Source: Bacteroidales bacterium
Lineage (GTDB): Bacteria > Bacteroidota > Bacteroidia > Bacteroidales > UBA4181
Reading direction: 5' to 3'
Assembly: GCA_031275285.1 (NCBI GenBank)
Contig: JAISOY010000068.1
Coordinates: 1 to 35,902, forward strand
DNA length: 35,902 nucleotides
In this document: in pieces, positions 3,814 through 33,497 of the stretch
How the letters are laid out: each line of letters starts with the position of its first letter
Position numbering within the stretch: the stretch's first letter is position 1
The notes under the pieces: generated by a model
Told to the model about the DNA's origin: nothing
What the model saw: only the letters and a program-made list of their open reading frames with translations
Databases searched by the model: none
Program-made: the position numbers and the translations under genes

Positions 3814-3832
3814 CCATATAAAATTTAACAAC

Positions 3833-8993: not shown

Positions 8994-9102
8994 GTGAATA
9001 TAATTATTTTTATGGTTCAAGATTCAAGATTTCGAATATATAGTTCATGGTTAAAGACTAAAGAGCAAATTTTACAACCTTGTACTTTTTAACGGATACT
9101 GT

Positions 9103-10569: not shown

Positions 10570-10596
10570 AGAAATACAAGACTTTATTTATTGAAT

Positions 10597-10824: not shown

Positions 10825-10832
10825 GGTGTAAA

Positions 10833-13076
10833 TTATTTTACTTCAATCACCCAATTTCCCGGGGACAGCATATTCAGGTTCTTTTTTTGTTTTGAATTGA
10901 TGTGGATTTTTTTGCCGTCTGTTATTTCTTTTGGCAGGTTTATTACCGCTTTTGTTTGATCCGGAACAAACAGTTCCAATTTATAAATTGCTTTATTTTC
11001 GATATTAATACGGATATTGCCGGTTGGGGTGGGGACAACAGCCTGAACTGATTTTAAATTTCCTGACTGTGGAGCGACGGAGAATACTTCGAATCTGGGT
11101 TTGATTGGTTCTATGCCGGCTATATATTGCATTAGCAGAGACAGCACTCCTCCCGACCATCCGTGGTTCCGTGATTGGGAAAAAGAAGAAAACTCCCAAC
11201 CTTCGGGCAGGGTGCTTATCTTGCTTTCGACCATGCCTTTATATCGTTCTTTGATTCTTTTCAGAGCATCATCACCCGCTCCTATTTTTAGTAATGCCTC
11301 CAGGACAAATTTCTCCATATAAGGGCTGGCATGTTTTTCTTTATTTAAGACCAACCGGATATTTTCCCATTTATCCTTGTCTGCCAGTCCCGTAACAACA
11401 GCCATAGCATTGGCACGATCATCGGTTTCACCTTTATACGAGGGTGAACGGTATTCTTTACCTGTCCAGAAAATACGGTTGAAATTACTATATATACTCT
11501 TCATCTGCCTGTCGTATGAAATCGTATCCTGAAATTGGCCAGCCATTATTGCGATTTTTTTTGCCATGTCAATTGCCGAATAGTACCAGACATTGTCCAG
11601 AAGAGGTACATCCTTGTTCCGACCCCAGTCCTGCCAGTCCCATTTACCGTCACGATGAACCACCAGGCCACCTTCGCCGATCTGCCATAAACCGGTATAT
11701 TTTTTAATGGCCGGATATGCATTTATCAGGGTTTCAGAATCGCCCGAAAACAGATAGTAGTAACCCAAACTCGGTTTACTGATTGCTGCCAGGCTCTGCA
11801 GGGGTAATTCCCGATACGGACCATACATAAGTGGAGGATGAGGACCAGGTATGGGAGAATAAAGGACGCCTTCTTCCGTCTGCCAGTTGACCAGTTCATT
11901 AATCGCTTTTTGGGAAAGAAAATAGACATCAGGAGAAAAGACATAGTATGATTGTAGGGCTTCGATTACTACATCACCCCACCACATGGCGCGTTCCCGT
12001 GTAGGGCAATCCATAAAATTATCACGCATATTTACGTATAGGGTTCTGCGGGCCTTTTCCCAAAGTATATTATAAAAATTGTCGTCGCAGTTAAAGCTTC
12101 CTTCAAATGCCGCATTATAGCCGGTTTCTCTATATTTCAATGAAATAATTTCTATTTCAGGAGAAAAGCAGTACCAAACCTGTTCACCGCTCATCCATCC
12201 CGGGCATTCAAATTCCTGAATACCTTCTTTTGTAATATATTCTGCACGGACATTATAAGCTCCTCCATCGGTATAGTAATCCGTTCGTATATCAACGCGC
12301 ATTCCCGCCTTGGCTTTGATTTTAAAGTATGGGGTAACCTGTGCATTATATGGTAATTGCATGGTCAGAATATTTCCCATGGAAGTAGCAGGAAATTTAT
12401 TCGTATAATCTTTTAATCCAAAATCTTTCCATTGCGGTATAGATCTTATTACTAGTTTTCCCCATGGTTTTTGTGGCGTTTTTCCGAATTCTGTTGCATG
12501 TTTCCATGCTTTGTCGTCATAGTTTGTGTCATACCAATTTTCTATTTCATTACGGGCGTCATAAACGACGTTAAATTCCGCTAGAGGGCGATATGGTTGG
12601 GTTCCCCTGATCAATATATCAAATGCCGGATGTTGTTTTACTTTCCATGTTCCGTCGCTGATGATTTTTTGTTTTCCGTTGATGGCTTCGAAAAATAACC
12701 CGCCGTGCCCGCTTCCGTTATGCCCGTGTCCTTCCTTTCCCCAGTACCAAACAAGTATGGCAATGGTATTTTCCCCTTTTCTGAGAAAAGGACGAAGATT
12801 TAAAGTATCGGCATATGTATCTTTGGGATTGGGCGTTCGTTTCAATCCCCCTTCCCGGATTACCAAATCTCCGTTGATCCAAAGCCAATATTTTGAATCG
12901 ACAGCAATCGTTGGTGGGACAACAGAAGGTAAATCCTTTGCCTCTATTGTTTTTCGGAATGCAATCCATGTATTGGGATTACTTTGCTTATCCCATATCC
13001 ATTGCGCAGTATATTGAGCATGCAAAAACGAACTGTAGACTAAAATTAAAAAAAATAATATTTTTCGTATTATCAT
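10833..13076 (-). CDS. GH78-like alpha-L-rhamnosidase, secreted
   Basis: The start is ATG at 13074-13076, giving 747 residues with a Sec signal (MIIRKILFFLILVYSSFLHAQ); the longer frame has a 21-residue extension without signal logic. The N-terminal beta domain has WIWDKQSNPNTWIAFRKTI and a jelly-roll pattern typical of Bac_rhamnosid_N. The catalytic (alpha/alpha)6 domain carries DCPTRERAMWWGD with D356, E361 and D368, equivalent to the GH78 signature; E361 is the expected general acid. LPEGWEF near the C-terminus of the barrel can supply the general base. A C-terminal beta domain ends the protein. It is shorter than and only distantly similar to the plus-strand GH78, so the two may act on different linkages. 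It follows the Tat-type oxidoreductase after 177 bp. Confidence 0.82.
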   Translation of the reverse strand: MIIRKILFFLILVYSSFLHAQYTAQWIWDKQSNPNTWIAFRKTIEAKDLPSVVPPTIAVDSKYWLWINGDLVIREGGLKRTPNPKDTYADTLNLRPFLRKGENTIAILVWYWGKEGHGHNGSGHGGLFFEAINGKQKIISDGTWKVKQHPAFDILIRGTQPYRPLAEFNVVYDARNEIENWYDTNYDDKAWKHATEFGKTPQKPWGKLVIRSIPQWKDFGLKDYTNKFPATSMGNILTMQLPYNAQVTPYFKIKAKAGMRVDIRTDYYTDGGAYNVRAEYITKEGIQEFECPGWMSGEQVWYCFSPEIEIISLKYRETGYNAAFEGSFNCDDNFYNILWEKARRTLYVNMRDNFMDCPTRERAMWWGDVVIEALQSYYVFSPDVYFLSQKAINELVNWQTEEGVLYSPIPGPHPPLMYGPYRELPLQSLAAISKPSLGYYYLFSGDSETLINAYPAIKKYTGLWQIGEGGLVVHRDGKWDWQDWGRNKDVPLLDNVWYYSAIDMAKKIAIMAGQFQDTISYDRQMKSIYSNFNRIFWTGKEYRSPSYKGETDDRANAMAVVTGLADKDKWENIRLVLNKEKHASPYMEKFVLEALLKIGAGDDALKRIKERYKGMVESKISTLPEGWEFSSFSQSRNHGWSGGVLSLLMQYIAGIEPIKPRFEVFSVAPQSGNLKSVQAVVPTPTGNIRINIENKAIYKLELFVPDQTKAVINLPKEITDGKKIHINSKQKKNLNMLSPGNWVIEVK

Positions 13077-13253
13077 AACGTTAAAAATAATTATCGTTCC
13101 AATCCTTCCGATGAAGAAAACAAACAAACACGAAAACAATAGATATTATATAATTGATATTTAATGGATTTTATATAAAGCTGAATTTAAAATTCAGATA
13201 AATAATCAAAAAATCTTGAGGTTTTCAGAAGTTTTCAAGGTGAATCCTTCCTT

Positions 13254-15626
13254 CTATCCAAAAATTTGTAATCCGAACAGTGATACCGGCACATTTTCGT
13301 GAGAACGATGGAATTGAACGGTTAATGATTTCGTTTGAACGGGTTTTTCGAATTTTATTTCATTACGGGAATGATGGTTGTCTGATTTTTCATAAATGAC
13401 CGTTCCTTTATCATCTACTATGTTATATTTCTGAACACAAAAAGGAATTACGTCTTCAGGATGCCCCATGAGGCAGGATTCCATCGGATGATCAAAATCG
13501 GTATCGAACCACAGTATCATGGAACGGATCGACTGTACCTGTTTCCATTCGCATATTATAAAGGGTTGTTTATCATTCAACGGTGCTATCCAGGAGTTGG
13601 CAGCGCCTGATCCGGGACGGAAAATACCGGTTTTTAATTGTTCCGTGCCGAATACTTTTAATGCCGGATCGAATTTCATGGCAATGTTTTTTCCTCCGGG
13701 TCTTCGTCCGGGCGTATACATCGGAATTTCTTCCACCCCATGTTTTTCATTTTCTTTCTGATTCCATCTGTAAAAAAGAGACAGTACACCTGTTAACCTG
13801 ATATCGGATTGTGCTACCGAAAGGTTTTCGTTCTTTTTCAGAATGATAAATCCATACTGTGCTTCTTTCAGGGATATCTTAAAATCTATTTCGATTTCAG
13901 ATGTTCCTTCCGATACCTGAAAATCTTTCCTGGCAAGAACGACATCGGGAGTATAGTTTCCGAAATGTCCGCTGATACAGAATTGAACTTCCAGCGAAGT
14001 GGTTTTTTCCGGTTTGACCTTGATTTTGACCTTGGATAACTTTCCTTTCGGAAAGGGAAATATCATGGCCGTATCCCGGGTCAGTTTCCACCATTGACCA
14101 TCTTCGGGCAATTCTGATAATTCAAGATTGCCGGATGTGCTGATTTTTGCCGAGTGGAACAGATCGGACGGCTGCTCCAGTTTCAGTCCAGGAATGTATT
14201 GCCCGGATTGCATCAGCATTCGTTGAAGTTCTCCTATATATTCTTTAGAGCAGATATCACGTGGAGAGGCATTGTTTTTCAGGCACAATGATGCCGCAAA
14301 TGCAGCAGCCTGTGCACATAAGGTGCCGGTCGAAATAACCCGTGTAGACCCGAATGCCACATGGGACACGCTGGTTAATCTTCCTCCCATGAACAGGTTA
14401 GAAATATTCCGGCTATAGATACAACGATAAGGGATGGTATAAACTCCTTTACTGTGGTATTGTGTACACCCGGGATAAGTACTGTATACGCCGGTTGCAG
14501 GATGGAGATCGATGGCCCATCCACCGTATGCAATGGCATCTTCAAAATGTTCCTGTCCGATGATATCCTGTTGTTTCAGCATGTAATCACCTTCGAAACG
14601 TCGGCTCTCGCGTTTGCCGGGAATGGTGCTTACCCATTCAAGAGTGAGATGATCCACATCTTTGAAAGTTCCGGAATTTTTGATGTAATCCCATACACCA
14701 TATACAACACGCCACAACTCGTCCTTGATTTTTTCCGAATCGAATACACGGTCCAGGTCGTCACCCCATTCGAGCCACCAGAGACGGCAACCGCTTGAGG
14801 TACGGTGTATGGATTTGAACCGGGGTATTTTCTCCGGAATATTTTTCAGGGCGAAAGCCGGAGGAACATATTTTACCGGCCGGCCGGTATCCTTACTGTA
14901 GAAATACATGGAATGGCCCAGCAATTTTCCATAATCATCAGGCATAATGAATTTTTCCCCGAATACATCTGTACTTTCCGCTCCGACACGAAAATCGGCT
15001 CCGGAAAGAAATCCTACAATCCCATCCCCGGATGTATCACAGAAAAGAGGAGCACTGACTTCATAAAGCGTAGAATTCTGGCTGCAGAAAGCAATCACTT
15101 TTCCGATCTTGTCCGGACTTGCCATTTCAACATCGTGAACTGCAGTATTGAGAAGAAGGGTGATATTGGGTTCGGCCCAGACTTTTTCGATAAGCAGGGC
15201 ATCAAAAAATACCGGATTACCTTCCCTGTTACGGTACAGGTTTTCTACGATTATTTCTTCATGTATGCCGCCTTCACGGGCCCAGCGATTATTGTTTCCC
15301 ATATGGGCGGTTGCACCAAGCACCCAGAGACGAATTTCACTCGAAGCGTTTCCACCCAGAACAGGACGATCCTGGATCAATAGCACTTTTAGCCCTGCAC
15401 GGGCTGCAGTGATGGCGGAACAGACACCGGCAACACCACCGCCCACCACAACATAATCGGCCTGGTATTTCTTTCCGGGTAGTTGTTGAGGTGAATGATT
15501 ATCTGCTTCCGGAACATTTCCCGAAATTACATTCACAGGGAGTCCTAAGCCTGCCAAAGCAAAACCGGATGTTTTGAAAAATGTACGACGGCCGATGCCC
15601 GGTTCTTGCGGATTATTTGCCTCCAT
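13254..15626 (-). CDS. FAD-dependent oxidoreductase (FAD_oxidored family) with Tat-type signal
   Basis: The 790-residue product has a twin-arginine signal (GRRTFFKTSGFALAGLGLP, Arg13-Arg14). The FAD-binding Rossmann motif VVGGGVAG is at 60-67, followed by DRPVLGGNASSEIRLW and, near residue 200, DTSGDGIVGFLSGADFR. GKRESRRFEGDY and the C-terminal FAD loop CIYSRNISNLFMGGRLTSVSHVAFGSTRV (split here for reading: CIYSRNISN and GGRLTSVSHVAFGSTRV) are shared with the next three oxidoreductases. Unlike them it lacks the N-terminal binding domain and instead has about 300 extra C-terminal residues of beta character. The reaction is unknown; the family is common in Bacteroidota glycan loci. It starts 16 bp after the stop of the upstream oxidoreductase, so they share an operon. 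Tat export would allow FAD to be loaded in the cytoplasm. Confidence 0.85.
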   Translation of the reverse strand: MEANNPQEPGIGRRTFFKTSGFALAGLGLPVNVISGNVPEADNHSPQQLPGKKYQADYVVVGGGVAGVCSAITAARAGLKVLLIQDRPVLGGNASSEIRLWVLGATAHMGNNNRWAREGGIHEEIIVENLYRNREGNPVFFDALLIEKVWAEPNITLLLNTAVHDVEMASPDKIGKVIAFCSQNSTLYEVSAPLFCDTSGDGIVGFLSGADFRVGAESTDVFGEKFIMPDDYGKLLGHSMYFYSKDTGRPVKYVPPAFALKNIPEKIPRFKSIHRTSSGCRLWWLEWGDDLDRVFDSEKIKDELWRVVYGVWDYIKNSGTFKDVDHLTLEWVSTIPGKRESRRFEGDYMLKQQDIIGQEHFEDAIAYGGWAIDLHPATGVYSTYPGCTQYHSKGVYTIPYRCIYSRNISNLFMGGRLTSVSHVAFGSTRVISTGTLCAQAAAFAASLCLKNNASPRDICSKEYIGELQRMLMQSGQYIPGLKLEQPSDLFHSAKISTSGNLELSELPEDGQWWKLTRDTAMIFPFPKGKLSKVKIKVKPEKTTSLEVQFCISGHFGNYTPDVVLARKDFQVSEGTSEIEIDFKISLKEAQYGFIILKKNENLSVAQSDIRLTGVLSLFYRWNQKENEKHGVEEIPMYTPGRRPGGKNIAMKFDPALKVFGTEQLKTGIFRPGSGAANSWIAPLNDKQPFIICEWKQVQSIRSMILWFDTDFDHPMESCLMGHPEDVIPFCVQKYNIVDDKGTVIYEKSDNHHSRNEIKFEKPVQTKSLTVQFHRSHENVPVSLFGLQIFG

Positions 15627-15642
15627 GGATGATTGTCAGTGT

Positions 15643-17439
15643 TTAATTGGGGATTACTTTTTCGACTCCTTTTTTCATCAATGTTTTCAGATCTTTCAGG
15701 TGATCCTGATATACTCCCCTCGGATTGGTTTTATTTTGTATGCAAAGTGAAGCTGCCATTCCTACTACTTCACCCATCATACCTGTGGTTTTTTGCACCC
15801 GGATACTCCCGAATGCAACATGTGTTGCACTAATGTTACGCCCTGCCATAAACAAATTGTTTATATTCCTGGAATAGAGGCAACGATAGGGTACATGATA
15901 AGGATATATGGGAACCTGAACGCAATAACTGTAAAATTCTTCCCCCGGGAAAAAACTGCTGCATTTAGGATCGGGAAAATGAAGGTCTAATGACCATGTT
16001 GTAGTAAAACTGGCATCATTATATTTTACCTGGTTTTGAATATCATTCTGATTCAGTATGATATCCCCGAGTAAACGGCGGGATTCCCTCTTTCCCGCTA
16101 AAAAGGCCATCCAGGTTATCTCCCGGTTGGCATAATCCGGATCGTTATTTTTTAAGTAAGACCAGTTACCTAATATGGCCCTGAGATTCTGGTCCCTTAT
16201 ATTTTCTGCATTCAGGATGGTGTTTTTTGTAAAACCACCTTCCCATTTCCAGCCGGGTTTTTTTTCTTTTATGTGATAAACTTCACTGAACTGACAAGCC
16301 CATTCCAATACGGGAAAAGAAGAGGGTTTGTCTTTTGTTTCGAATGACCACATATTGGAGGAACCTAATACATGATGATCTGAAGATAATGGTGCCAGCG
16401 ACTCGAAAGCTTCATAACGGCTTTCTCTTCCCATCCGGTAATCTGCCCCGGAAAGATAACCAACAGCCGCATCTCCTGTGCAATCCGCAAATAATGTTCC
16501 GTAGAAACGGAATTCATCACCGGTTTCTATATGGCGGCCGGTAACTGACTGTATCGTATTTTGATCAGTTTCAACGACAAATACATGAATATTCAGATAT
16601 AAACTGATATTTTTGTTTTCCCGTACCACACTCATTTTCTTATCATCCTTGTAAGCTTCCGCAGGGCCGGCATTGAAGGGCCTGTCCATCTGGATTTCTT
16701 TAACTACTTTTCCCAGGTTCGGATAAAGGTTTTTATCGGTATCACCTGTCAGGCCCACCCTGATTTCTGAACTGCCATTTCCTCCCAGAACCGGGCGGTC
16801 ATTGATCAATGCGACCTTAAGACCGCATTGTGCGGCAGAAACAGCTGCACATATCCCTGCTGCTCCTCCTCCGATAACCACCAGGTCATAATGCCCTGCA
16901 TCTTTTTGTTTTATGTTCAGCTTTTCCCGCCTGAATTCCATCAGTTCATCTGTTGCTGACGGCGGCACAAAAGAAGGGTCTTTAGTGAAATAAAGAGCAT
17001 CGCAACGACCGTTGAAGCCTGTTAAATCCTGTAAAATGATTTCTGTTTGCTTTTTATTGATATTGATCTTTCCGGCGCTTTGCCAGATCCATTCGTTGCC
17101 CTTATCACCCAGGGTTACAGGAAGGACTTTACCGTTCAGTTTAATCCTGAACTTTCCGGGGCCGGCTTTTTCGTACCATGGAGATGTCCAGTTATATACC
17201 CGCACATGTATGTAATAAGTACCTGTTTCAGGAAAATCAACTACCGTACCGGCATCAGATACAGGTTTTCCCAGTCCGTGGGCCATCAGGTAAGGAGAGC
17301 CCATCTGGTCTGCAAACTGTTGGTCTACTACCCAGCCGCCTTTTTCTGCAAAACTCTCCGCTTCGACAAACAAGTCCGATGCATATATATGCCTGACGCT
17401 GGAAAGCAATATTACTAACAGAAACACATACGGATTCAT
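15643..17439 (-). CDS. Secreted FAD-dependent oxidoreductase with N-terminal CBD-like domain
   Basis: The 598-residue product has a Sec signal (residues 1-20, ending HIYAS) without lipobox Cys. Residues 22-155 form a beta-sandwich (FVEAESFAEKGGWVV, then TGTYYIHVRVYNW, ending LTGFNGRCDALY), like the golvesin/xanthan-lyase CBD-like domain. Residues 184-590 are the FAD_oxidored domain: VVIGGGAAG, DRPVLGGNGSSEIRVG, ADCTGDAAVGYLSGADYR, GKRESRRLLGD and the C-terminal FAD loop AGRNISATHVAFGSIRV. Its ATG follows directly on the TAA of the upstream paralogue (TAAATG), so translation is coupled. It is closely similar to the two genes upstream, which points to tandem duplication. Substrate and electron acceptor are unknown. 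Confidence 0.85.
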   Translation of the reverse strand: MNPYVFLLVILLSSVRHIYASDLFVEAESFAEKGGWVVDQQFADQMGSPYLMAHGLGKPVSDAGTVVDFPETGTYYIHVRVYNWTSPWYEKAGPGKFRIKLNGKVLPVTLGDKGNEWIWQSAGKININKKQTEIILQDLTGFNGRCDALYFTKDPSFVPPSATDELMEFRREKLNIKQKDAGHYDLVVIGGGAAGICAAVSAAQCGLKVALINDRPVLGGNGSSEIRVGLTGDTDKNLYPNLGKVVKEIQMDRPFNAGPAEAYKDDKKMSVVRENKNISLYLNIHVFVVETDQNTIQSVTGRHIETGDEFRFYGTLFADCTGDAAVGYLSGADYRMGRESRYEAFESLAPLSSDHHVLGSSNMWSFETKDKPSSFPVLEWACQFSEVYHIKEKKPGWKWEGGFTKNTILNAENIRDQNLRAILGNWSYLKNNDPDYANREITWMAFLAGKRESRRLLGDIILNQNDIQNQVKYNDASFTTTWSLDLHFPDPKCSSFFPGEEFYSYCVQVPIYPYHVPYRCLYSRNINNLFMAGRNISATHVAFGSIRVQKTTGMMGEVVGMAASLCIQNKTNPRGVYQDHLKDLKTLMKKGVEKVIPN

Positions 17440-19302
17440 TTAATCTCTTTTTTGGGGTCTTTCCTTTAAGGTTCCACCCAGGTTATAATCCGGATATCCT
17501 TTAGTACCATCTTTTCCGACTCCTTTTTTCATCAGTACTTTCAAATCTTCCAGATGATTTTCATATACCCCCCTTGGGTTGGTCTTGTTCTGTTTGCAAA
17601 GCGAGGCCGCCATTCCTACTACCTCGCCCATCAATCCGGTAGTACGCATTACACGGACGGTTCCTAGAGCCACGTGTGTTACACTGATATTACGTCCGGC
17701 CATGAAAAGGTTGTCGACGTTGCGTGAATAGAAGCAACGGTAAGGAATAGGGTAAGGATAAATAGTTTTATGGACAGCAATGGATTTGAATTCCTGACCG
17801 GGGAATTGTGCCGTATTTTTCGGATCGGGATAATGCAGGTCGATGCTCCATGAAGTAGAAGCTGTTCCGTCAGGGTATACCACATAATCGGTGATGTCCT
17901 GTTCTTTCAATATGTGATCGCCCAGAAGACGGCGTGATTCGCGTTTTCCTGCAACATAAGCGACCCAACCGAGAGAACGGTTGACATATTTTTCGTTTTC
18001 ACTGAGTTCATTTTTCAAAAAAGACCAGTTGGAATATACCACCATCAGGCCATAGTCACGGATACGTTCGAATTCACTGATCTGGTCGTAATTCATACCT
18101 GTTTCCCAGGTCCATTCCCCCATGGTTACTTTCTGGGCATTTTCTTCGTTGAATTCAACGCCATAGCGAAAAACCGGAAAATCAACCGGAGTTTTTTTAT
18201 CTTCAGAATACCATTGTACGGAACTTCCCATGGTCATTTTATCTCCTTCTTCTGGGGCTGTGGATTCACCAAACTCAGCTTTTGATTCCCGACCCATGGC
18301 GAAATCGGCTCCGGCCAGTACACCGACAGTACCATCACCTGTACAATCGGCAAAAACGGGAGCGGTGAAGGTCAATTCTTCGCCTGTTTCAATGTGTTTT
18401 GCTGTAACCGATTTGATCATATTCCCATCCATTTTTACGGCAAAAGCGCGATAGTTGAGGAATTGGTCTATATTCGGTTCTCCATCCATCAGGTTGGTTT
18501 TCTTTTCATCTTCATACCTGTCTGCCGGTTGTGCATTCCCACCTTTCATCGGGCTCATTTCTTTAACCACACCGCCTAATTCCGGATACGGTTCCAATGC
18601 AATTCGTCCGCCAAGATGTACACGAACTTCGGAACTGTTGTTACCACCCCATATAGGCCTGTCGTGTATGATGGCAACTTTTGATCCCAGGCGGGCGGCT
18701 GAGACAGCAGCACACATGCCTGCAACTCCACCTCCTACGACTACGAAATCATATTTTCCTGCATTCTTAGGCTTGATGCCTGTTTTCTGGGAACGGAAAG
18801 TAGTCAGTTGATCCAACCCTGCCGGAGGAACGAATGTGCTATCCTGTGTGAAATATATGGCATCACAACGTCCGTTGAATCCGGTTAAATCCTGTAAAGC
18901 GACCTGTGTATTCTTGTTTTTGATCTCTATTTTGCCACCATCCTGCCACAACCATGAATTCCCGGTATCTCCGAAAACCCGGCCAACCGGCTTTTGATCG
19001 ATCAAAACCTGAAATTTTCCCGGACCAGGATCATTTGTCCATGGAGATGTCCAGTTATAAGTGCGGACAAACATCCTGTAACTACCTGTTTTAGGGAACC
19101 TGACGGTAGTAGTTGCGTTATCTACTTTCTTTCCCATACCATGTGCCATCAGGTAGGATGATCCCATCAGATCCATAAATTGCTGGTCGACCACCCAACC
19201 TCCTTTATCGGAAAAATTTTCTGTTTCAACAAAAAGATCAGCAGGTTGGTTACTACATGCTGCCAAAACAATACAAAGTAAAATAATGAAATGTGTTTTC
19301 AT
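17440..19302 (-). CDS. Lipoprotein FAD-dependent oxidoreductase with N-terminal CBD-like domain
   Basis: The 620-residue product has a lipoprotein signal (MKTHFIILLCIVLAAC, Cys16). The CBD-like domain spans 22-155 with FVETENFSDKGGWVVDQQ and TGSYRMFVRTYNWTSPW. The FAD domain follows with VVVGGGVAGMCAAVSAARLG (187-206), DRPIWGGNNSSEVRVHLGG, ADCTGDGTVGVLAGADFAMG, GKRESRRLLGDHILKEQDI and AGRNISVTHVALGTVRVMRT. Most residues around the flavin are kept relative to the paralogues on both sides, so the copies look active. It stops with no gap before the next ATG and begins 29 bp after the stop of the upstream copy. The segment DGEPNIDQFLNYRAFAVK is the part that survives in the remnant at 10597-10824. 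The reaction is not known; oxidation of a sugar hydroxyl on the glycan is one possibility. Confidence 0.86.
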   Translation of the reverse strand: MKTHFIILLCIVLAACSNQPADLFVETENFSDKGGWVVDQQFMDLMGSSYLMAHGMGKKVDNATTTVRFPKTGSYRMFVRTYNWTSPWTNDPGPGKFQVLIDQKPVGRVFGDTGNSWLWQDGGKIEIKNKNTQVALQDLTGFNGRCDAIYFTQDSTFVPPAGLDQLTTFRSQKTGIKPKNAGKYDFVVVGGGVAGMCAAVSAARLGSKVAIIHDRPIWGGNNSSEVRVHLGGRIALEPYPELGGVVKEMSPMKGGNAQPADRYEDEKKTNLMDGEPNIDQFLNYRAFAVKMDGNMIKSVTAKHIETGEELTFTAPVFADCTGDGTVGVLAGADFAMGRESKAEFGESTAPEEGDKMTMGSSVQWYSEDKKTPVDFPVFRYGVEFNEENAQKVTMGEWTWETGMNYDQISEFERIRDYGLMVVYSNWSFLKNELSENEKYVNRSLGWVAYVAGKRESRRLLGDHILKEQDITDYVVYPDGTASTSWSIDLHYPDPKNTAQFPGQEFKSIAVHKTIYPYPIPYRCFYSRNVDNLFMAGRNISVTHVALGTVRVMRTTGLMGEVVGMAASLCKQNKTNPRGVYENHLEDLKVLMKKGVGKDGTKGYPDYNLGGTLKERPQKRD

Positions 19303-19331
19303 GAGAGATATACTAATTTATGATTTTTCTG

Positions 19332-21260
19332 TTATTCATCAAGTTTCTTTATTTCAGGAAACCCAAGGTTACCAACGCCCTTTTCCATTAATGTTTTTAA
19401 TTCAGGCAAATGTAATTGATAGATTTGTCTTGGATTTACCGAATGTTTCTTGCATAATGAAGCTGCCATCCCGACTACTTCACCCATCATTCCCCCTGTC
19501 CGCATAACACGAATTGTTCCCAGGGCGACATGTGTCACACTGATATTCCGTCCGGCCATGAACATATTATCTATATTTCTGGAATATAAACACCTGTATG
19601 GTACTGCATAGGGTTTTATATCCTGTATATCGGCATAAGAAAGAAATGGTTCTTCTGTTAAACCGGGAATTTCTTTGGGAAAATGAAGATCTATTCCCCA
19701 GGTAGTAGTAAAAGAAGCATCTTCATAAGATATATCTTCTAAGATATCCTGTTCTTTCAATATGATATCGCCCAGTAAGCGGCGTGATTCCCGTTTGCCT
19801 CCGATATAGGCAACCCAGGTAAGTTTTTTATCTGCAAATGCGTCTTTTTTAGGGCTTTTATTTTTCAGAAAATCCCAATTTCCAAAAACAGCACGTAATC
19901 CATAATCACGGATATATTCTATTTCAGTGATCTGATTTCTGTTCATTCCTGTTTCCCAATTCCAATCTCCCCTCAGGCCCGGGCGACAGGTTTGTTCATT
20001 AAATTGAAGCGCCCATGAGCATTCCGGAAATAAAGAATTCTTATTTGTCTTTTCAGCATACCATTGAACAGAAGTGCCCATTACTAATTGATCTGTTTGT
20101 TCCGGTGCCCGTGGTTCTCCGGTTTCACTTTTACTTTCCCTGCCCATACGAAAATCTGCATTAGAGAGATAACCCAGATTTCCGTCACCTGTACAATCGG
20201 CAAATAATTTACCCTTGAAAAGGTATTCCTCACCGGTCATAATATTTTTACCTGTTACAGAAACAATACAATTTCCTTCTTTATGTATTTTGTAAACTTC
20301 TGTATTCAGGAACAGGGTGATGTTCTTTTCATTTTCCACCACCCATTGTTTTTTTGTATCTTCATAGTTGGTTTCAGGTCCGGCATTATGGATTTTTTTC
20401 TCGGGATGTTTTTTTATGATATCCATAATTTGCCTGCTTCTTTCCGCATCGGGATTTTGTTTTGCTTCCCAATATGTCCAGTGTCCGACACCTCCGATTT
20501 CATCGAGCAGATTACCCAGATTAGGATAAGGTAGTTGACTGATCAATCCTGACAAACCGACGCGTACTTCCGAACTATTGTTTCCTCCAAGTACCGGCCG
20601 GTTTTGTATCAACGCTACTTTGCATCCTAAACGGGCGGCACTGATGGCTGCGCAACAACCGGCAATACCACCTCCAACGACGACAAGATCAAAATCTTTC
20701 AATATTTCAGGATTGGATAATCCTAATTGCTGTTCACGAAAAGCAGCTAGTTTGTCCGGCTCGTCGGGAGGGATTTGTTTGTGGTCTGTAGTCAGGTAAA
20801 TAGCATCACAACGACCATTAAATCCGGTAAGGTCGTGAAGTGTAATCTTGTTATCACCGGATTTTAATTTTATGATCCCTCCATCCTGCCAGTGCCACTC
20901 AGCCTGCCTTGTTCCGAAAATAGTATCTAATATGAGGCCATTAAATTGAACCATGAACCTTCCCGGTGATCCTTCTTTTCCCCACTGTTTTACCCAATCC
21001 CTCGTCCTGACCCAAACCCTGTATTTCCCGTTTTCAGGCAGGGAAATAACCGTGGATGCATCTTCAACAGGGATACCCAGTCCGTGAGCCATCAGGTATG
21101 GTGATCCCATCGCATTTACAGATTGATTGTCGACTACCCAACCGCCTTTATCAGAAAAACTTTCTACTTCTATAAAAACATCAACAGGTTGATTATTACA
21201 TGCGTAGAAGACCCCCCATGTTAAGAATAGTATTGTGATTTTATGGATACCTCCGGTCAT
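19332..21260 (-). CDS. Lipoprotein FAD-dependent oxidoreductase with N-terminal CBD-like domain
   Basis: The start is ATG at 21258-21260; the codon before it is TTG. The 642-residue product has a lipoprotein signal ending FYAC (Cys21). The CBD-like domain (27-160) has FIEVESFSDKGGWVVDNQ, and the FAD domain starts at VVVGGGIAGCC (193-203). Other shared motifs are NRPVLGGNNSSEVRVGLSG, ADCTGDGNLGYLSNADFRMG, GKRESRRLLGDIILKEQD and AGRNISVTHVALGTIRVMRT. Compared with its two paralogues it has an insert of about 40 residues near 235-290 (HWTYWEAKQNPDAERSRQ and following), close to the predicted substrate side, so specificity probably differs. It follows the 823-residue lipoprotein by 40 bp and is the first of four oxidoreductase genes in transcription order. 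Confidence 0.85.
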   Translation of the reverse strand: MTGGIHKITILFLTWGVFYACNNQPVDVFIEVESFSDKGGWVVDNQSVNAMGSPYLMAHGLGIPVEDASTVISLPENGKYRVWVRTRDWVKQWGKEGSPGRFMVQFNGLILDTIFGTRQAEWHWQDGGIIKLKSGDNKITLHDLTGFNGRCDAIYLTTDHKQIPPDEPDKLAAFREQQLGLSNPEILKDFDLVVVGGGIAGCCAAISAARLGCKVALIQNRPVLGGNNSSEVRVGLSGLISQLPYPNLGNLLDEIGGVGHWTYWEAKQNPDAERSRQIMDIIKKHPEKKIHNAGPETNYEDTKKQWVVENEKNITLFLNTEVYKIHKEGNCIVSVTGKNIMTGEEYLFKGKLFADCTGDGNLGYLSNADFRMGRESKSETGEPRAPEQTDQLVMGTSVQWYAEKTNKNSLFPECSWALQFNEQTCRPGLRGDWNWETGMNRNQITEIEYIRDYGLRAVFGNWDFLKNKSPKKDAFADKKLTWVAYIGGKRESRRLLGDIILKEQDILEDISYEDASFTTTWGIDLHFPKEIPGLTEEPFLSYADIQDIKPYAVPYRCLYSRNIDNMFMAGRNISVTHVALGTIRVMRTGGMMGEVVGMAASLCKKHSVNPRQIYQLHLPELKTLMEKGVGNLGFPEIKKLDE

Positions 21261-21303
21261 CAAATATTGTTCTTATCAAATTTTTCAGATTGTATTTATA
21301 CTA

Positions 21304-23775
21304 TTAATTATATTCCAGCCATGCCGTTGCCAGCGTATTACTATCGGTTGAGAACCGTATCCATCTTGCCAGGAAGGATTGCGGAAACAGGGATTTAAAT
21401 ATTTCTCCGGGGCCTACACTAATGTCCTTGTATTTCACCCAGTCTCCATCCCCTGTAGGATCGACTTCAATGGTAAAAGTAACCATTTTAGCCGATTGAT
21501 GCGATAATTCTAACTGGCGTTGATCATAAAAACCTATTAAGTACGGGTCGGATGGTATCCCCGCTTTTACATTTGTATCTACCCATGGCCCTCCTTTTCC
21601 TTCGGGTTTTCCTAATTTCCACAGATCATCGATCACTCCGGCCCAAACAGCAGCCTTCTTGTCTTCAGAAATAAATATATGTGGGTTTTTTCCTGCTTTT
21701 TTAGGATCAATTCCTGAAATAATGAGTAATCCGCGATAAGAAGCGTAATCTTGTATTTTCAGGTTATGTGAGGCAACGGGCCTTATTTTCGCATAGCCGT
21801 CTGCATTTTCTGCCGGTAGTTCATAAAAAGTTCCATGGCAATTGAAGAGATCCCGCTCTGTCGCCACTTCACGGCAAATACGCAACAATCCTTTCTGCAT
21901 TGCTGCCGTATATTCTTCGTTACCCAACGGAAGCCTCCATCTTCTACCCTTATCATCCACCACCAGTACCGAACCTTTTTCTACTTCAACAACATTTTCC
22001 GGGATGGCAAATTTTTCACGGATGAACGAAGTTGTTTTATGATCTTCTTTAAGAACTATTTTCATCCGTTCATCTATCTCATAATATCCGGTTTCTCCGG
22101 TTTCATTTCCTGCAAGTATCCCCATAACCCTTCTATTGTCTCCTAAACCGTATAATAATCCTCCTGTCGATTTTTCCTGGTCTATAGTAGAAATCCCTTT
22201 AAATATAGGGTCAGGGATGTTTTTTCTTTTATCTATATCCGCATAAACAAAAGCAACGCTTGCCTGTGTGTTTTTATCGGAAATAACCCTTATCCATTCT
22301 CCTTTTTCCTTTTCTTCGAATTCAAGAAATAGAGATCCTCCGGCAGGAATATCTATATCCTTCAGTTTATTCCATTGTCCGGTTCCTTCTTTATCTGTTT
22401 CGAATTTGAATGTTACGGTCTGATTTCCTGTATTTTTCAGCCAGGCAGTACGGATATCCCATCCGGCAAATAAAAATGGTTCGGAAGGAATATTGGCTTC
22501 TACAGGTTCATTTAACCATACATAGCCACCGGCATTTTTAGGTCCGAGTCTATCCGGTTGATCAACCGCTGTAAACCAAAGGTTCGAGTTGGATTGTCCC
22601 GGTCCTTCAATACCTCCTTTGGTTTTTCGTTTATTTAAAAATTCTTTTTGTGCAGCATCATCACAGCCGAATACCAATTGGTCATTCCAACGTGTAAAGT
22701 CACCGATTACTTTCAGATATGCCGAACGGGGCCTGATTCCTGCAGAATTGGATAAGGTAAAAGTTTTCGGGAAATGCCAGAACATACCGTGCATGGTCAT
22801 TAAGTAATCAGGCTGATCTTTCGTTCCGATATCACGGATCCTTGGCCACTCGGTATTCCAGCCGTGTGCTCCGTCATAAGAGTAACTGGCTTTAGGCAGG
22901 CGATAGAACTGCCAGCCTTTTTTTGCATCACGGACTCCTGTAATTACGGATTTGTGGTCCCAACCTGTTGCCCAGATAGGGTCCGTTGCAGGATCCGGAT
23001 TTCCGTATATTCCTCCTGGACCTGTTACTTCGACGAATTGGTTGCGACGGACAATTGTCCAATCTTTTCCATTCCATTCTGCCAAAACACCAGCTTTTAT
23101 ATCGAATTTAATTTTGGCTTCCGGACTATCCTCCCCGTTATTGGAATAAACCAGAACCCCCTGTCCTGAATATAATCCTTTCCCGTGGCAGCCGGGCAGA
23201 AGATCGTTGTATTGTCCGGATTTTCCTTTTTCTCTTTTCCCTTTTATATTACCATCCTCATACAACATGTTAACTCCCAGGTCATTTACATCTATCTCAT
23301 AAAAACCTTCCTCCATGGTACCCAAATATATTTTATTTTCCGGGTCTGTAAGATGACGTGCATTTCCCGTATGCCTTCCCGGAGCATTTTTATATGGTAT
23401 CGTCCTTACCTTTCTTTCCTGATCGACTACATACGGACCGATGAACAACTGGTTGCTTTCTTTGTGAATCATCCTGTTGGCAGGTGTTCCGCCCACACTT
23501 TCGGGCCTGGTTGTTATTTCAAGTTCCGGAGAAATTTCATATAATTTGTCGGATGAACCGAATGGTAAGTGCGGCCCGTAGGTAATCACCCACAACCTGT
23601 CTGCCCAGGTAACTACAGCTCCTGTTCCGCATTCTCCTTCGTTATTATAATAAGCTAAATGGGGATAGATGCCACTAATACAGAGTTTTGAAGCACTTTC
23701 CCGATTCGGAGGTGTACAGGAAAAAAGAAATATTATCCCGATGATATAGATGAATTTCCTCGTTTTGTGCAACAT
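21304..23775 (-). CDS. Large lipoprotein, possibly beta-propeller glycan-active enzyme, with two copies of a C-terminal module
   Basis: The 823-residue product has a lipoprotein signal (lipobox LFSC, Cys20). The N-terminal part (34-400) is Trp/Gly-rich with repeated strand patterns: SGIYPHLAYYNNEGECGTGA, WADRLWVITYGPH, GSSDKLYEI, LPGCHGKGLYSG. This suggests a beta-propeller. It reminds me of propeller enzymes that act on L-rhamnose-uronic acid linkages (GH145, PL25, PL42), but I cannot confirm the family. Residues 430-512 and 741-822 are an internal repeat (PSEPFLFAGWDIR versus PSDPYLIGFYDQR; KDIDIPAGG versus KDISVGPGE; WIRVISDKNT versus WIRFSTDSNT), probably beta-sandwich binding modules. 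It is the first gene after a strong terminator and has its own promoter-like box, so it may lead a second transcription unit. Confidence 0.6.
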   Translation of the reverse strand: MLHKTRKFIYIIGIIFLFSCTPPNRESASKLCISGIYPHLAYYNNEGECGTGAVVTWADRLWVITYGPHLPFGSSDKLYEISPELEITTRPESVGGTPANRMIHKESNQLFIGPYVVDQERKVRTIPYKNAPGRHTGNARHLTDPENKIYLGTMEEGFYEIDVNDLGVNMLYEDGNIKGKREKGKSGQYNDLLPGCHGKGLYSGQGVLVYSNNGEDSPEAKIKFDIKAGVLAEWNGKDWTIVRRNQFVEVTGPGGIYGNPDPATDPIWATGWDHKSVITGVRDAKKGWQFYRLPKASYSYDGAHGWNTEWPRIRDIGTKDQPDYLMTMHGMFWHFPKTFTLSNSAGIRPRSAYLKVIGDFTRWNDQLVFGCDDAAQKEFLNKRKTKGGIEGPGQSNSNLWFTAVDQPDRLGPKNAGGYVWLNEPVEANIPSEPFLFAGWDIRTAWLKNTGNQTVTFKFETDKEGTGQWNKLKDIDIPAGGSLFLEFEEKEKGEWIRVISDKNTQASVAFVYADIDKRKNIPDPIFKGISTIDQEKSTGGLLYGLGDNRRVMGILAGNETGETGYYEIDERMKIVLKEDHKTTSFIREKFAIPENVVEVEKGSVLVVDDKGRRWRLPLGNEEYTAAMQKGLLRICREVATERDLFNCHGTFYELPAENADGYAKIRPVASHNLKIQDYASYRGLLIISGIDPKKAGKNPHIFISEDKKAAVWAGVIDDLWKLGKPEGKGGPWVDTNVKAGIPSDPYLIGFYDQRQLELSHQSAKMVTFTIEVDPTGDGDWVKYKDISVGPGEIFKSLFPQSFLARWIRFSTDSNTLATAWLEYN

Positions 23776-28283: not shown

Positions 28284-31200
28284 TTAAAATGTCACTTGAA
28301 CCCCAAAATTATATACTTTCTGGATTGGATAGGAAAGACCGTTTCCTGCCATTTCGGGATCCCATAATTTAAAATTACTGAAAGTAAGCAGATTGGTGCC
28401 GCTAAAGTAAAATCTACAGGTTTTCATGGAAATACGCTTGATCCAGTTTTCCGGTAAAGAATAACCGAACTCCACTGATTTCAAGCGCAAAAATGATCCG
28501 TCTCTCATGAACCAGGTGCTTCTTTGAACATTGTTATCAATCATCTGATCCGATAATCTGGGCCACAGTGCATAAAGATTTCTGTTTTCTTCAGACCAAT
28601 AGTCATCGGCATATACCTGTAACATTGCATTTTTGGAGATAACCTTGGTATCATCGTCCGTATCAATAAACGGGGCAGTGTTTGTTGCATCTATCCAGAA
28701 CGATCTTTGCGCCAGTCCCTGAAAAAAGAAAGAAAAGTCAAAGCCCTTATATCCTGTGGACAATCCGAATCCATAAATGATCTGGGGCTCTGTCGGAAAC
28801 CCGATCGGGACTTTGTCTTCATCGGTTATTAATCCATCCCTGTTGATGTCACGGTATTTGATGTCACCCGCCATATATCCGCCATTGAACTGAGCCGGGG
28901 AATTGGCCACCTCTTCTTCATCGACAAACAACCTTTCGGCAATTAACCCCCATTGTTGCGATACAGATTGGCCGATCTTCGATAACCAGGGCATATTTGT
29001 ATATTCGACTTCTTCGTATTCGTCATATTGGGAAACGGCATAAGTAAGGTTTCCGCGGCCACTGATCCACCAGTCGGGAGTGATGTTTTTCTGAATATCT
29101 ACGGATAGGTCTACTCCATGTGCCTTTGCCACCCCCAGATTTGATTGAGGATCGGCTCCCATCAATCCCATGGATTTAGGAATAGAAGCCCGTGATAACA
29201 AAATATTTTTCCTCCTTTCCCGATAATAATCAACCTGTAAATCAACCATATTAAATAACTTAGCCTCTATTCCCAGATTCATTTTGGTGGATCGTTCCCA
29301 GGTAATTAACTCATTGGCATATTTACTGATGGATATGCCGGGTACTGAATAATTCAACTCTTCTCCCCAGGTATAAGCGTAGGAAGCATTATTCATACTG
29401 ACTTCTGAAAGATAAAAAAAGCGTTGATTGGTATTTCCAATGGCATCATTACCTACCAGCCCATATGTCCCTTTCAGTTTAAACATATTTACATATTTCT
29501 TTAAAGAATTTCCCCAGAATGATTCGTTGGATAGGATCCATCCCACAGCTGCAGATGGGAAAAATCCAAAACGTTCGTTTTTGGCAAAGCGTTCCGATCC
29601 GTTGTAGCCAAAGTTGAATTCCCCGAAATAACGCGAATCGTAATTATAGGTAAAGCGACCGGATAATCCTACATTCCGCATAGGAAGAAATGATGTCAGG
29701 GAACCGGCATTGCCCTCTAATTTTTCTCTTAACGTAAAGACCAACAAACCGCTGACACCATGTTTTTCTGCGAATGTCTGGTCATAATTAATAGCTCCTT
29801 CAAAATAGATGACAGAATTTACGTCTTTCTGTCCTTCGCTGTAGGTCAGATAATCGGTACCGCCATTCGTGCCGGATGGGTTTAGTCCGGTTAGGACATA
29901 AGTATCTTCATATTTATCATATCCGGCAACTGCATAATAAAAAGGATTATAAGATCTGGATACATCAAAATAAGAATACCTGGTGGTATTGAATAATCCA
30001 CGCAGGCTTAATCCTTCAAGAAAAAAGTCCAGCTTTTGTTTCAATTCGACCTGTGCAAGAACAGTGGTTTTGGAATATTCCTTATAGCCTTTTACCATGT
30101 CTGCATAGGGATTGATATAATTTCCATTATCATAGTTTCCGAAAAGAATATGTTTCTTGCTTAGATGTGCGCTATCGGGTGTAAAATAAGCAGGGAATAA
30201 AGCGGGATCGGTACGTAATATTTTTTTGTACAGGTCACTGCCTCCATCCAACGGACCGGAATAATCGTCGAAAGTTCCGTGTAAACGAATGACGACCTCG
30301 GTGGTCGGAGTAACATTGATATTTATATTGGAACGCAATAAATAACGCTTCAGATCAATATTACTGTTAAAATTATTCCGTTTGTCTACTTTTAATACAC
30401 CATTGTCCTGATTATAGGTAGCAGCGACATAATAACGGGCCACCTTACCACCCCCGCTCAGGTGGAAATTCAACCGGTGATTGAAAGTCTGGTCTTTGAT
30501 CAGCATATCCCTCCAGTCTGTTGCAGGATATACCATCGGGTTCTTTCCGGCAATAGTATTGCCTATTTTTTCCAATGAATAAGGGATCATCCCTATTTTA
30601 TTGCGGGTTAAAACAGCTTCATTATTCATTTGCATATAGGTGATCGGATCGACCAGATCTATATCTTTAGTCGGCCTGGAAATAGACGTTTCATATCTGA
30701 TAGAGATCGTAGCGGGTCCTTCGCGGCCCTCCTTGGTAGTTACCAGAATAACGCCATTGGCTCCGCGTGCACCATAAAGTGCTGCTGCCGTTGCATCTTT
30801 CATCACAGAAAATGCGGCGATATCATCCGGTTGTAGTCTGGCCAGATCCGTTGAAGTCATTTCGACACCATCGATAAGGATCAGTGGACCTGCTCCGGCA
30901 TAATCAAAAGTAGTCACCCCACGGACAAAAAAGTTGGCATCATCCATTCCCGGTTCTCCGCTGGTCTGATAAGAGATCAAACCGGAAATTCGTCCGGCGA
31001 GTGCTGTGGTTAAATTACTGCTGGGAATTTTCAATTCGCTTGGATTGACCGTGGTGATGGATGCCAAGACACTTTCCTTCTTTTGCTTGGCAAAAGCAAC
31101 CACCGTTACTTCATCAAGTTCGTTTACCTTTGGTGTCAGAGCAACGGTAATTTCGGTTTGTTCTCCTACGATCACCGAATAAGTCTGATAGCCCACGAAA

Positions 31201-31742
31201 GAAATATCCAGTTGGTCTGTTGAAAGGGCTTCGATAGAATAAGATCCGTCGGTATCGGTCATCACGCCGCGGGTAGTTCCATTTATCTGGATAGTTGATC
31301 CGGGTAACGGGTCTCCGTTCTCATCGAGAACTTTTCCTTTTATGGTTTTGGTATTTTGTTTCGGGGCTATTTTTACTTCATTGGCGCTTTCCGGTGAAAG
31401 AACAATTTGTTGTCCCTGAACTTTGTAATCTATTCCGTTTTTTATCAGAACCTGGTTTAAAATATCGGTAATAGTGGTGTTTTTGAAATTTTCACCAATT
31501 TTCCTGTTGATATTGATTTGTTCGTTATTATAGAAAAAAGTAAATTCTGTTTGTGCTTCAATGGTATTTAACACCTCTTTGATGGTCATTCCTTCAACGT
31601 TCATACTCAATCGTTTATTTTGAGCAGAACTTGTTGCAGACAATTGTATTAATGTCGCAAAGAGGAGAAAAAAAGTGATTTTCATTATTCGCTTAACTCT
31701 TCCATAAGGTAATAAAACCTCTGTTATTTTAAATTTTTTCAT
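28284..31742 (-). CDS. susC-like: SusC-type TonB-dependent transporter with STN signalling domain
   Basis: The 1152-residue product imports oligosaccharides across the outer membrane with TonB energy. A long signal peptide (1-40) is followed by an STN domain (about 43-115; MTIKEVLNTIEAQTEFTFFY), a carboxypeptidase-regulatory-like domain (133-203; IKGKVLDENGDPLPGSTI), a TonB-box-like DEVTVVAFA (210-218) and the plug (about 220-345; LILIDGVEM, MKDATAAALYGARGANGVIL). A large beta-barrel completes it, ending with VYNFGVQVTF, an aromatic-terminated last strand. The STN domain is the part that contacts FecR-type anti-sigma factors, and fecR and an ECF sigma gene lie directly upstream. So import should switch on transcription. 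A candidate antisense RNA overlaps its leader. Confidence 0.96.
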   Translation of the reverse strand: MKKFKITEVLLPYGRVKRIMKITFFLLFATLIQLSATSSAQNKRLSMNVEGMTIKEVLNTIEAQTEFTFFYNNEQININRKIGENFKNTTITDILNQVLIKNGIDYKVQGQQIVLSPESANEVKIAPKQNTKTIKGKVLDENGDPLPGSTIQINGTTRGVMTDTDGSYSIEALSTDQLDISFVGYQTYSVIVGEQTEITVALTPKVNELDEVTVVAFAKQKKESVLASITTVNPSELKIPSSNLTTALAGRISGLISYQTSGEPGMDDANFFVRGVTTFDYAGAGPLILIDGVEMTSTDLARLQPDDIAAFSVMKDATAAALYGARGANGVILVTTKEGREGPATISIRYETSISRPTKDIDLVDPITYMQMNNEAVLTRNKIGMIPYSLEKIGNTIAGKNPMVYPATDWRDMLIKDQTFNHRLNFHLSGGGKVARYYVAATYNQDNGVLKVDKRNNFNSNIDLKRYLLRSNININVTPTTEVVIRLHGTFDDYSGPLDGGSDLYKKILRTDPALFPAYFTPDSAHLSKKHILFGNYDNGNYINPYADMVKGYKEYSKTTVLAQVELKQKLDFFLEGLSLRGLFNTTRYSYFDVSRSYNPFYYAVAGYDKYEDTYVLTGLNPSGTNGGTDYLTYSEGQKDVNSVIYFEGAINYDQTFAEKHGVSGLLVFTLREKLEGNAGSLTSFLPMRNVGLSGRFTYNYDSRYFGEFNFGYNGSERFAKNERFGFFPSAAVGWILSNESFWGNSLKKYVNMFKLKGTYGLVGNDAIGNTNQRFFYLSEVSMNNASYAYTWGEELNYSVPGISISKYANELITWERSTKMNLGIEAKLFNMVDLQVDYYRERRKNILLSRASIPKSMGLMGADPQSNLGVAKAHGVDLSVDIQKNITPDWWISGRGNLTYAVSQYDEYEEVEYTNMPWLSKIGQSVSQQWGLIAERLFVDEEEVANSPAQFNGGYMAGDIKYRDINRDGLITDEDKVPIGFPTEPQIIYGFGLSTGYKGFDFSFFFQGLAQRSFWIDATNTAPFIDTDDDTKVISKNAMLQVYADDYWSEENRNLYALWPRLSDQMIDNNVQRSTWFMRDGSFLRLKSVEFGYSLPENWIKRISMKTCRFYFSGTNLLTFSNFKLWDPEMAGNGLSYPIQKVYNFGVQVTF

Positions 31743-31749
31743 ACATTTG
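31720..31749 (+). promoter_or_regulatory. Candidate promoter of the antisense RNA over the susC leader
   Basis: On the plus strand TACATTTG (31742-31749) fits TAnnTTTG exactly. TCTG (31720-31723), 18 bp upstream, is one base from the TTTG of the -33 element. Transcription would start near 31756 and run away from susC, opposite to it. Confidence 0.4.
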
Positions 31750-31755
31750 AGTGAT

Positions 31756-31870
31756 TTTATTTAATATCAATTCAATTATCGAAGCAATCCGATAATGAAA
31801 CATACTGATTAATTAAAGTCATTATGGAGCAGGAAGTGCTGGACCCACTCTCTGCTCTTTTGCTTTTTCT
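31756..31870 (+). ncRNA. Candidate cis-antisense RNA of the susC leader (DonS-like arrangement)
   Basis: A promoter-like pair ends at 31749, and a rho-independent terminator lies at 31827-31866, so a plus-strand RNA of about 110 nt is expected. It is complementary to the susC leader in the 173-bp gap between fecR and susC. In Bacteroides fragilis the DonS RNA has the same place and orientation in an ECF/FecR-controlled locus and represses susC-type genes. A further 7-bp hairpin (31775-31796; ATTATCG/CGATAAT) lies in its 5' half. No coding frame is present. The evidence is layout and structure only, without expression data. Confidence 0.45.
31827..31866 (+). terminator. Rho-independent terminator, plus strand, in the fecR-susC gap
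   Basis: The arms GAGCAGGAAGTG (31827-31838) and CACTCTCTGCTC (31846-31857) form 12 positions with one mismatch and one G-T pair. The loop is 7 nt. TTTTGCTTTTT follows. The T-tract is on the plus strand, although all annotated genes here run on the minus strand, so it most likely ends an antisense RNA. Confidence 0.65.
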
Positions 31871-31915
31871 CGTTCCGGGTTATTTCATAGGCTGCTTGAT
31901 TTTATATAAGAGTTT

Positions 31916-32806
31916 TTAATTATTTTTTTGATGAATCATAATTTTGTCTTCGGTTTGTTCGAATTGTACCGGCAATGCATTCTGGATCAATTGAAATATC
32001 TGGGATATGTCTTCATTACGTACGGTAAATGTTAAACGATAACTTGTTTTCAAATCTTCCGGGCATTCTATTTTTTTTCCATACCAGCGTTCCAGCCGGT
32101 TGATGATATAACCCAGTTCCGCATTGTCGAAATGTAATCTTCCATTAACCCATGTAGTATATCGGGATGCATCAATTTTTTGTATGACAATATCCTGATT
32201 TTCTTTATTAAAAAGAAATTGTTCATCCGGTACTAGGTTCGTAACTGAAACCGAATCATTTGCGGACCGGACATTTACCTTTCCGGAAATCAATACTGTT
32301 TCAGCGGTAGTTGCATCCTGATAATCAGAGACGGTAAATTGTGTTCCGAGTACATTTATCTGTAATTGTCCGGTTAAAACCACAAAGGGCTGTTCTTTCT
32401 GTGGTTTAACATCGAAATACGCTTCCCCGGATAATTTTACTTCACGGGATTTGTCATCAAAAACAACCGGATATTCGATACGGCTTCCTGCATTTAGAAG
32501 TACGACAGTCGAATCGGGCAATAATACACGCATCCGTTCTTCATTGCCGGTTTCATGAGAGATCATCTGGACGGGTTTTGTCCTTCCTGCCAGGTTATTT
32601 AACATATATCCAATACCGAATAATATAACGATTGCAGCAGCAGCCCATAAATAAATGTGAACAAAAGAATTATTTCTTTTCCCTTCAATACTTTTATGAA
32701 TACGTTGCCGTAATAGTCTTTTTTCATCTTCGGGAAATTTATCAACGGCTCCTTCCCTAAAAGTATGGATTATCTTTTCATCGTTTTGAAGATCGTCTTT
32801 TATCAT
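31916..32806 (-). CDS. fecR-like: FecR-type anti-sigma factor
   Basis: The start is ATG 32804-32806; the longer frame begins with TTG four codons earlier. The 296-residue product has a cytoplasmic sigma-binding segment (about 1-45), one membrane span (about 50-70; IYLWAAAAIVILFGIGYML) and a periplasmic FecR domain (about 95-195; RVLLPDSTVVLLNAGSRIEY, SGEAYFDVKPQKEQPFVV, VLGTQFTVSDY). The C-terminal DUF4974 domain (about 225-296; LHFDNAELGYIINRLERWYG) resembles STN and should contact the SusC STN domain. It holds the sigma factor inactive until the transporter signals. It lies 51 bp after the sigma gene and 173 bp before susC. Confidence 0.95.
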   Translation of the reverse strand: MIKDDLQNDEKIIHTFREGAVDKFPEDEKRLLRQRIHKSIEGKRNNSFVHIYLWAAAAIVILFGIGYMLNNLAGRTKPVQMISHETGNEERMRVLLPDSTVVLLNAGSRIEYPVVFDDKSREVKLSGEAYFDVKPQKEQPFVVLTGQLQINVLGTQFTVSDYQDATTAETVLISGKVNVRSANDSVSVTNLVPDEQFLFNKENQDIVIQKIDASRYTTWVNGRLHFDNAELGYIINRLERWYGKKIECPEDLKTSYRLTFTVRNEDISQIFQLIQNALPVQFEQTEDKIMIHQKNN

Positions 32807-32857
32807 CTTTTCTATCAATGGATATGATGAAAAGACACAAAAAGATATTTTTTGTAC

Positions 32858-33418
32858 TCAATCTTCCGGAAAAAAAGTAAAAATAAATTTGTATATCAGG
32901 AAGAATAAGAATACTGGAGGCGAGTCTCCCAACCGCTCCCTTAAACGGATAAGCGCCCGGTGTACTGTGTTCCTGACCGATTGATAATTCATTTGTAATA
33001 ATTCCCCTATATCGGAGTAATTCAGTCCTTCAATGTAATAAAGGTAAATGGCTTCTTTTTGCCTGTTGGTAAGATTTTCAAATGCTTTTTCAATAAATAA
33101 CTTTAATTCCCGGACCTGATCATTTTCTATAAGGACATCTTCATCGGATGACACCTGTAATGCGTAAGAAAAAGAAGCATCTTCGATATAATCTTTTGAT
33201 TTATCCGACAATTCATCCAATAACCTGTTTTTAAATGAGCGCAGAAGGTAAAATTTCAGGTTCTGTACAGAGGATAAGTCTTTCTCATAAAGTTTTACAA
33301 AAACATCATGGATGCAATCTTTGATCATTTCCTTGTCCATGGTAAATTTACATCCGTAGGAATAGAGCATCTCAGCCTGTTCCTCGTAAATCGACCATAG
33401 AAACTTTTTATTATCCAT
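32858..33418 (-). CDS. ECF RNA polymerase sigma factor (FecI/RpoE-like)
   Basis: I place the start at ATG 33416-33418 (MDNKKFLWSIYEEQ), giving 186 residues. The longer frame would begin at 33496, right beside the -7-like box at 33498-33505, and its 26 extra residues fit no sigma domain. Region 2 is AEMLYSYGCKFTMDKEMIKD and CIHDVFVKLYEKD. Region 4 is LTNRQKEAIYLYYIEGLNYS and the helix-turn-helix QMNYQSVRNTVHRALIRLRE. After region 4 comes an unusual hydrophobic tail of about 17 residues (PPVFLFFLIYKFIFTFF). It should direct transcription of the locus, starting before susC, when released by the FecR protein encoded next. Confidence 0.93.
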   Translation of the reverse strand: MDNKKFLWSIYEEQAEMLYSYGCKFTMDKEMIKDCIHDVFVKLYEKDLSSVQNLKFYLLRSFKNRLLDELSDKSKDYIEDASFSYALQVSSDEDVLIENDQVRELKLFIEKAFENLTNRQKEAIYLYYIEGLNYSDIGELLQMNYQSVRNTVHRALIRLRERLGDSPPVFLFFLIYKFIFTFFPED

Positions 33419-33497
33419 CCAATGATTTTTTCTTCTCAAACAACAAAAATAGTCTTTATTTTTGGGATTATTGATTCTTTTTGAGATATATGGCATT

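Follow-up and report, generated by a model that had tools for sequence, protein, structure and literature searches.

Does the strand opposite to susC, across the gap that separates this gene from fecR, encode an RNA of its own, and if so, what would it do? In the window, that is, the whole stretch of 35,902 nucleotides analyzed here, the genes for an ECF-type sigma factor, an anti-sigma factor (FecR), and a SusC/RagA transporter all lie on the − strand, while the elements listed below as promoter box and terminator all lie on the + strand, as was pointed out in the initial annotation. We consider it probable that a small RNA gene occupies the + strand of the fecR-susC gap and that its transcript most likely silences the PUL when its glycan is absent.

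Results and Discussion

Elements of a candidate antisense RNA gene in the window

The relevant features are, with coordinates referring to the window:

28284..31742, − strand: susC, presumed target, encoding a TonB-dependent SusC/RagA transporter that has an STN domain
31916..32818, − strand: fecR, anti-sigma
32858..33496, − strand: ECF-type sigma factor gene
31720..31723, + strand: TCTG, weak match to a −33 element, as which it was proposed; relatives do not conserve it at the same spacing
31742..31749, + strand: TACATTTG, promoter box at −7 for the predicted antisense transcript (consensus, TANNTTTG); shares bases with the start codon of susC
31754..31868, + strand: predicted antisense RNA of ~110–115 nt; putative start ~4–6 nt past the box, putative 3′ end in the T run
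31771..31799, + strand: TTATCG...CGATAA, hairpin within the antisense RNA, predicted by folding
31827..31857, + strand: terminator hairpin GAGCAGGAAGTG-CTGGACC-CACTCTCTGCTC, loop of 7
31858..31868, + strand: T-rich tail TTTTGCTTTTT, directly 3′ of the terminator hairpin
31880..31888, − strand: ATG AAA TAA, mini-ORF of the susC leader (M-K-stop)
31886..31892, − strand: GCCTATG, motif conserved in leaders, located 33 nt before the boundary of the hairpin

The sequence TACATTTG, which reads CAAATGTATG on the sense strand, agrees with the −7 box recognized by the primary sigma factor of Bacteroidota. It follows TCTG on the + strand at a spacing of 18 nt, and the two had been taken for a promoter-like pair within the gap. 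Both sequences are indeed present, but the box overlaps the start codon of susC and is not within the gap. The role of TCTG as the −33 half gained no support: it is not conserved in relatives, and TTTG, the expected element, was not enriched at the expected spacing among 66 loci. In the same 66 loci, a T tract was enriched on the antisense strand 35–38 nt upstream of the −7 box; as its position is also that of lysine codons at the N-terminus of SusC, it may be either coding or an UP-like element.

About 80 nt beyond the box, again on the + strand, lies the terminator hairpin. Described before as having 12 positions and a T-rich tail, it does precede TTTTGCTTTTT, but its stem consists of 11 pairs (including a G-U pair) and a single A-C mismatch. 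Box and terminator together predict a transcript of ~110–115 nt, which agrees with the ~110-nt RNA antisense to the susC leader that had been proposed. The predicted RNA (31756–31872) folds at −26.7 kcal/mol (z = −3.56 versus shuffled sequences), and a + strand terminator equally good as the one observed arose in 4 of 1,000 dinucleotide shuffles of the gap. As some TANNTTTG was present in 185 of 1,000 such shuffles, the box alone is not significant. Searches with the locus itself yielded little: a simple terminator scan did not list the + strand hairpin of the window, Rfam contained no match to the candidate RNA at gathering score, and a DNA similarity search with the gap returned short matches only, located at susC starts. 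The strong evidence comes from other STN-susC genes, at which box and terminator recur together.

The box recurs at the start codon of STN-susC genes

This recurrence was assessed for STN-domain susC genes from the same genome and from relatives, with ~376 kb of contigs of the same genome plus the window serving as control DNA; the thresholds for box and terminator were chosen on this first set and held in the Bacteroides set (see below). The sense-strand box, CAAANNT, directly precedes an in-frame ATG in 11 of the 14 STN-SusC genes of the host genome, nine times at the most upstream ATG, and is absent in its exact form from the other three loci. Among 258 control ORFs of at least 150 codons, CAAANNT preceded ATG in seven, six of which were the STN-SusC genes themselves, so that outside this group the arrangement occurs in ~1 of 250 genes. 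In each of the 31 box loci, the ATG next to the box shared the reading frame of SusC; out-of-frame copies numbered three, each of them in a locus that also had an in-frame copy. An N-terminal extension follows this ATG before the SusC signal peptide begins. The gene upstream was fecR in 28 of the 31 box loci, the remaining three having <360 nt of upstream sequence available.

A box that abuts a start codon could also be read without any antisense RNA, namely, CAAANNT as a translation-start signal of SusC and the hairpin as a structural element of the sense leader, and the similar TAAC/TAAAA spacing before both susC and the mini-ORF would be in line with this explanation. However, CAAANNT is nearly missing from other genes. 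Also, the strand polarity of the hairpin speaks against it: a strong intrinsic terminator (dG of −9 or better) was found upstream on the antisense strand in 27 of 30 box loci and on the sense strand in none of the 30, that is, the T run follows the hairpin on the antisense strand only. Because, in addition, box and terminator co-occur (p = 5e-13, detailed in the next section), we regard an explanation without an antisense RNA as very improbable.

Box and antisense terminator occur together

When 111 STN-susC loci, those of B. fragilis and B. faecis included, were sorted by the two elements, an antisense terminator 60–145 nt upstream was present in 41 of the 46 loci with the box versus 14 of the 65 without it, which is the association quoted above. 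Eight of these 14 carry a shifted box or a variant differing in one base. One STN-susC locus of the host genome (L014) has the exact box and a gap to fecR of 301 nt; no terminator was found there.

The RNAs were less amenable to comparison at the level of structure. MAFFT put several hairpins out of register, so that a covariance model was not attempted. In a comparison of hairpins resembling one another, two pairs had changed on both sides and still paired, seven had changed on one side, and one was broken, numbers too small for an argument. A YUNR loop motif was rejected as a feature of the family, as it was present in only 8 of 28 loops.

With the exception of the terminator, the internal sequence of the RNA is little conserved, and the antisense promoter is positioned over the susC start, facing the region of the sense promoter. 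Both facts could mean that promoter and terminator are genuine but that the transcript between them is inert, any effect resulting from interference between convergent promoters while the terminator only shields fecR from antisense read-through. Yet, an RNA acting in cis on its own complement needs no conserved sequence, and divergence is what would be expected; furthermore, members of the family in B. thetaiotaomicron accumulate as discrete RNAs on northern blots (PMC7366714, PMC10994844). An inert transcript thus appears unlikely, and a functional antisense RNA is the reading we prefer.

The same layout in Bacteroides and the relation to DonS

In B. fragilis Q1F2 and B. faecis MAJ27, the box was present at the start codon in 16 of 40 STN-susC loci, and 15 of these 16 had the antisense terminator; in L257, it is 281 nt away, outside the usual range. 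An N-glycan locus would be expected to encode a BT1044-like GH18, and a search for this enzyme gave two candidate PULs of B. fragilis for don: L266 has both box and terminator, L263 has neither, and L266 may be the don locus. Strain Q1F2 also contains four STN-susC genes with near-identical starts close together (G060:C1:403054-417458), apparently repeated on a second contig (G060:C2:17973-32375); in none of these clusters does the box directly precede ATG.

Antisense RNAs of the DonS type are 78–128 nt long, and 52% of the cis-antisense RNAs of B. thetaiotaomicron have a canonical promoter (Ryan et al, 2020, PMC7366714); 32 PUL-associated antisense RNAs are counted in this organism (Ryan et al, 2024, PMC10994844). 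The candidate resembles them in being encoded opposite to susC, beside its start and between the anti-sigma gene and susC, and also in its predicted length, which is within this range, its primary-sigma −7 box, and its intrinsic terminator. In contrast, the host of the window belongs to a different genus, and the RNA is predicted here from sequence. The family was first described, according to the portion of the literature accessible to us, for PULs of mucosa-derived glycans, a restriction that the count in PMC10994844 does not make; the PUL in the window, with its rhamnosidases and FAD oxidoreductases, is not an obvious host-glycan set. As position, strand, length, −7 box, and terminator fit and the layout recurs, B. 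fragilis included, the DonS-like reading put forward in the initial annotation gained support, and classification of the candidate as a newly found, PUL-associated member of this family is well supported at the sequence level. The paralogous FopS small RNAs of B. thetaiotaomicron repress susC translation at its 5′ region but act in trans on many targets (PMC11697453). The candidate would likewise be directed at the 5′ region of susC, presumably also as a repressor, but it is encoded in cis and fully complementary to its own leader.

A rule that uses nothing but CAAANNTATG at the susC start and an antisense terminator 60–145 nt upstream would find PUL antisense RNAs in unannotated Bacteroidota genomes without RNA-seq. 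The layout extends beyond Bacteroides, precedes dozens of similar genes, and defines the exact bases to mutate, while functional study of PUL antisense RNAs is called for in the literature.

Proposed mode of action

The −7 box at the susC start codon would allow the housekeeping sigma factor to initiate a transcript of ~110 nt directed away from susC, which would cross the susC leader and end at the intrinsic terminator before fecR. Such an RNA would be fully complementary to the leader from approximately −12 to −125 relative to the start codon. In the absence of the glycan, it could pair with leader RNA that arises from leaky transcription, with the duplex reaching the edge of the ribosome footprint, so that translation would be blocked, the leader RNA would decay, and the PUL would stay silent. 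On activation by the sigma factor/FecR pair, the RNA would be overridden by surplus mRNA and by sense transcription passing through its promoter.

The direction of this effect deserves caution. Correlations between antisense RNAs and susC in B. thetaiotaomicron are negative but also positive (PMC10994844), and repression can therefore not be assumed for each member. An RNA with a positive or conditional effect, exerted perhaps through masking of an inhibitory structure in the leader or of the leader mini-ORF, would accommodate the positive correlations of some antisense RNA-PUL pairs, and a conserved mini-ORF is situated just upstream of the paired region (see below). Nevertheless, DonS of B. 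fragilis (Cao et al, 2016) is reported to repress; in those parts of the published work available to us, it is the sole member tested functionally, and a later publication refers to its mechanism as unknown. We deem a positive or conditional role rather improbable and favor repression for the candidate.

A mini-ORF upstream of the predicted pairing region

On the sense strand, CCTATG precedes the hairpin in 24 of 42 antisense-RNA loci, where 0.4 would be expected, mostly 27–39 nt from the hairpin boundary, and its presence follows that of the terminator (31 of 55 loci with versus 6 of 56 without; p = 3e-7). The ORF opened by the ATG of this motif stops within nine codons in 35 of 40 cases, compared with 14 of 40 in the +2 frame; relative to the remaining ATGs of these AT-rich gaps in the first set, this shortness is less striking (13 of 17 versus 46 of 108; p = 0.017). 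A promoter of the ECF type with fixed spacing, AACC...CCTATG, was considered, but the spacing is too variable for it.

With the whole-genome DNA pattern GCCTATG-N88-118-CAAANNTATG, 20 further loci were fetched (L286–L305). Each of them was at a SusC-like start and had a mini-ORF of one to six codons, and the antisense terminator was present in 19, in a sample that is not blind, as it came mainly from two genomes with many matches and was picked partly after the hairpin had been seen in the matched DNA. Across the order and the phylum, many single matches look like chance, with similar numbers for the control pattern, whereas some genomes are clearly enriched (11 versus 2 in G119; 7 versus 0 in G275).

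The GCCTATG mini-ORF is a new observation; the motif may be translated, be a site for a protein or RNA, or be part of promoter DNA. In the plasmid copy control system CopA/tap/repA, an antisense RNA covers a leader that also has a short leader ORF. By analogy, we tentatively propose, as a possibility of rather low likelihood, that susC leaders of Bacteroidota under sigma/FecR control form a two-part switch, in which an ultra-short ORF (one to six codons) at GCCTATG is located ~33 nt before the antisense target and its translation, or stalling on it, sets both antisense pairing and susC translation, as in plasmid leader-peptide/antisense systems but at chromosomal nutrient loci. Unlike in CopA/tap/repA, the mini-ORF (one to six codons) is outside the paired region and far from the main start, and the coupling is conjectural. 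The GCCTATG mini-ORF would give a large group of glycan transporters one more candidate regulatory element.

Other genes in the window

The 823-aa protein encoded at 21304–23775 had no Pfam match. A PUL occupies region 6939–21263 of the window; it encodes three FAD_oxidored proteins, an enzyme of the rhamnosidase type, an esterase, and a melibiase-like protein, and a second rhamnosidase is encoded on the + strand at 3740–6631.
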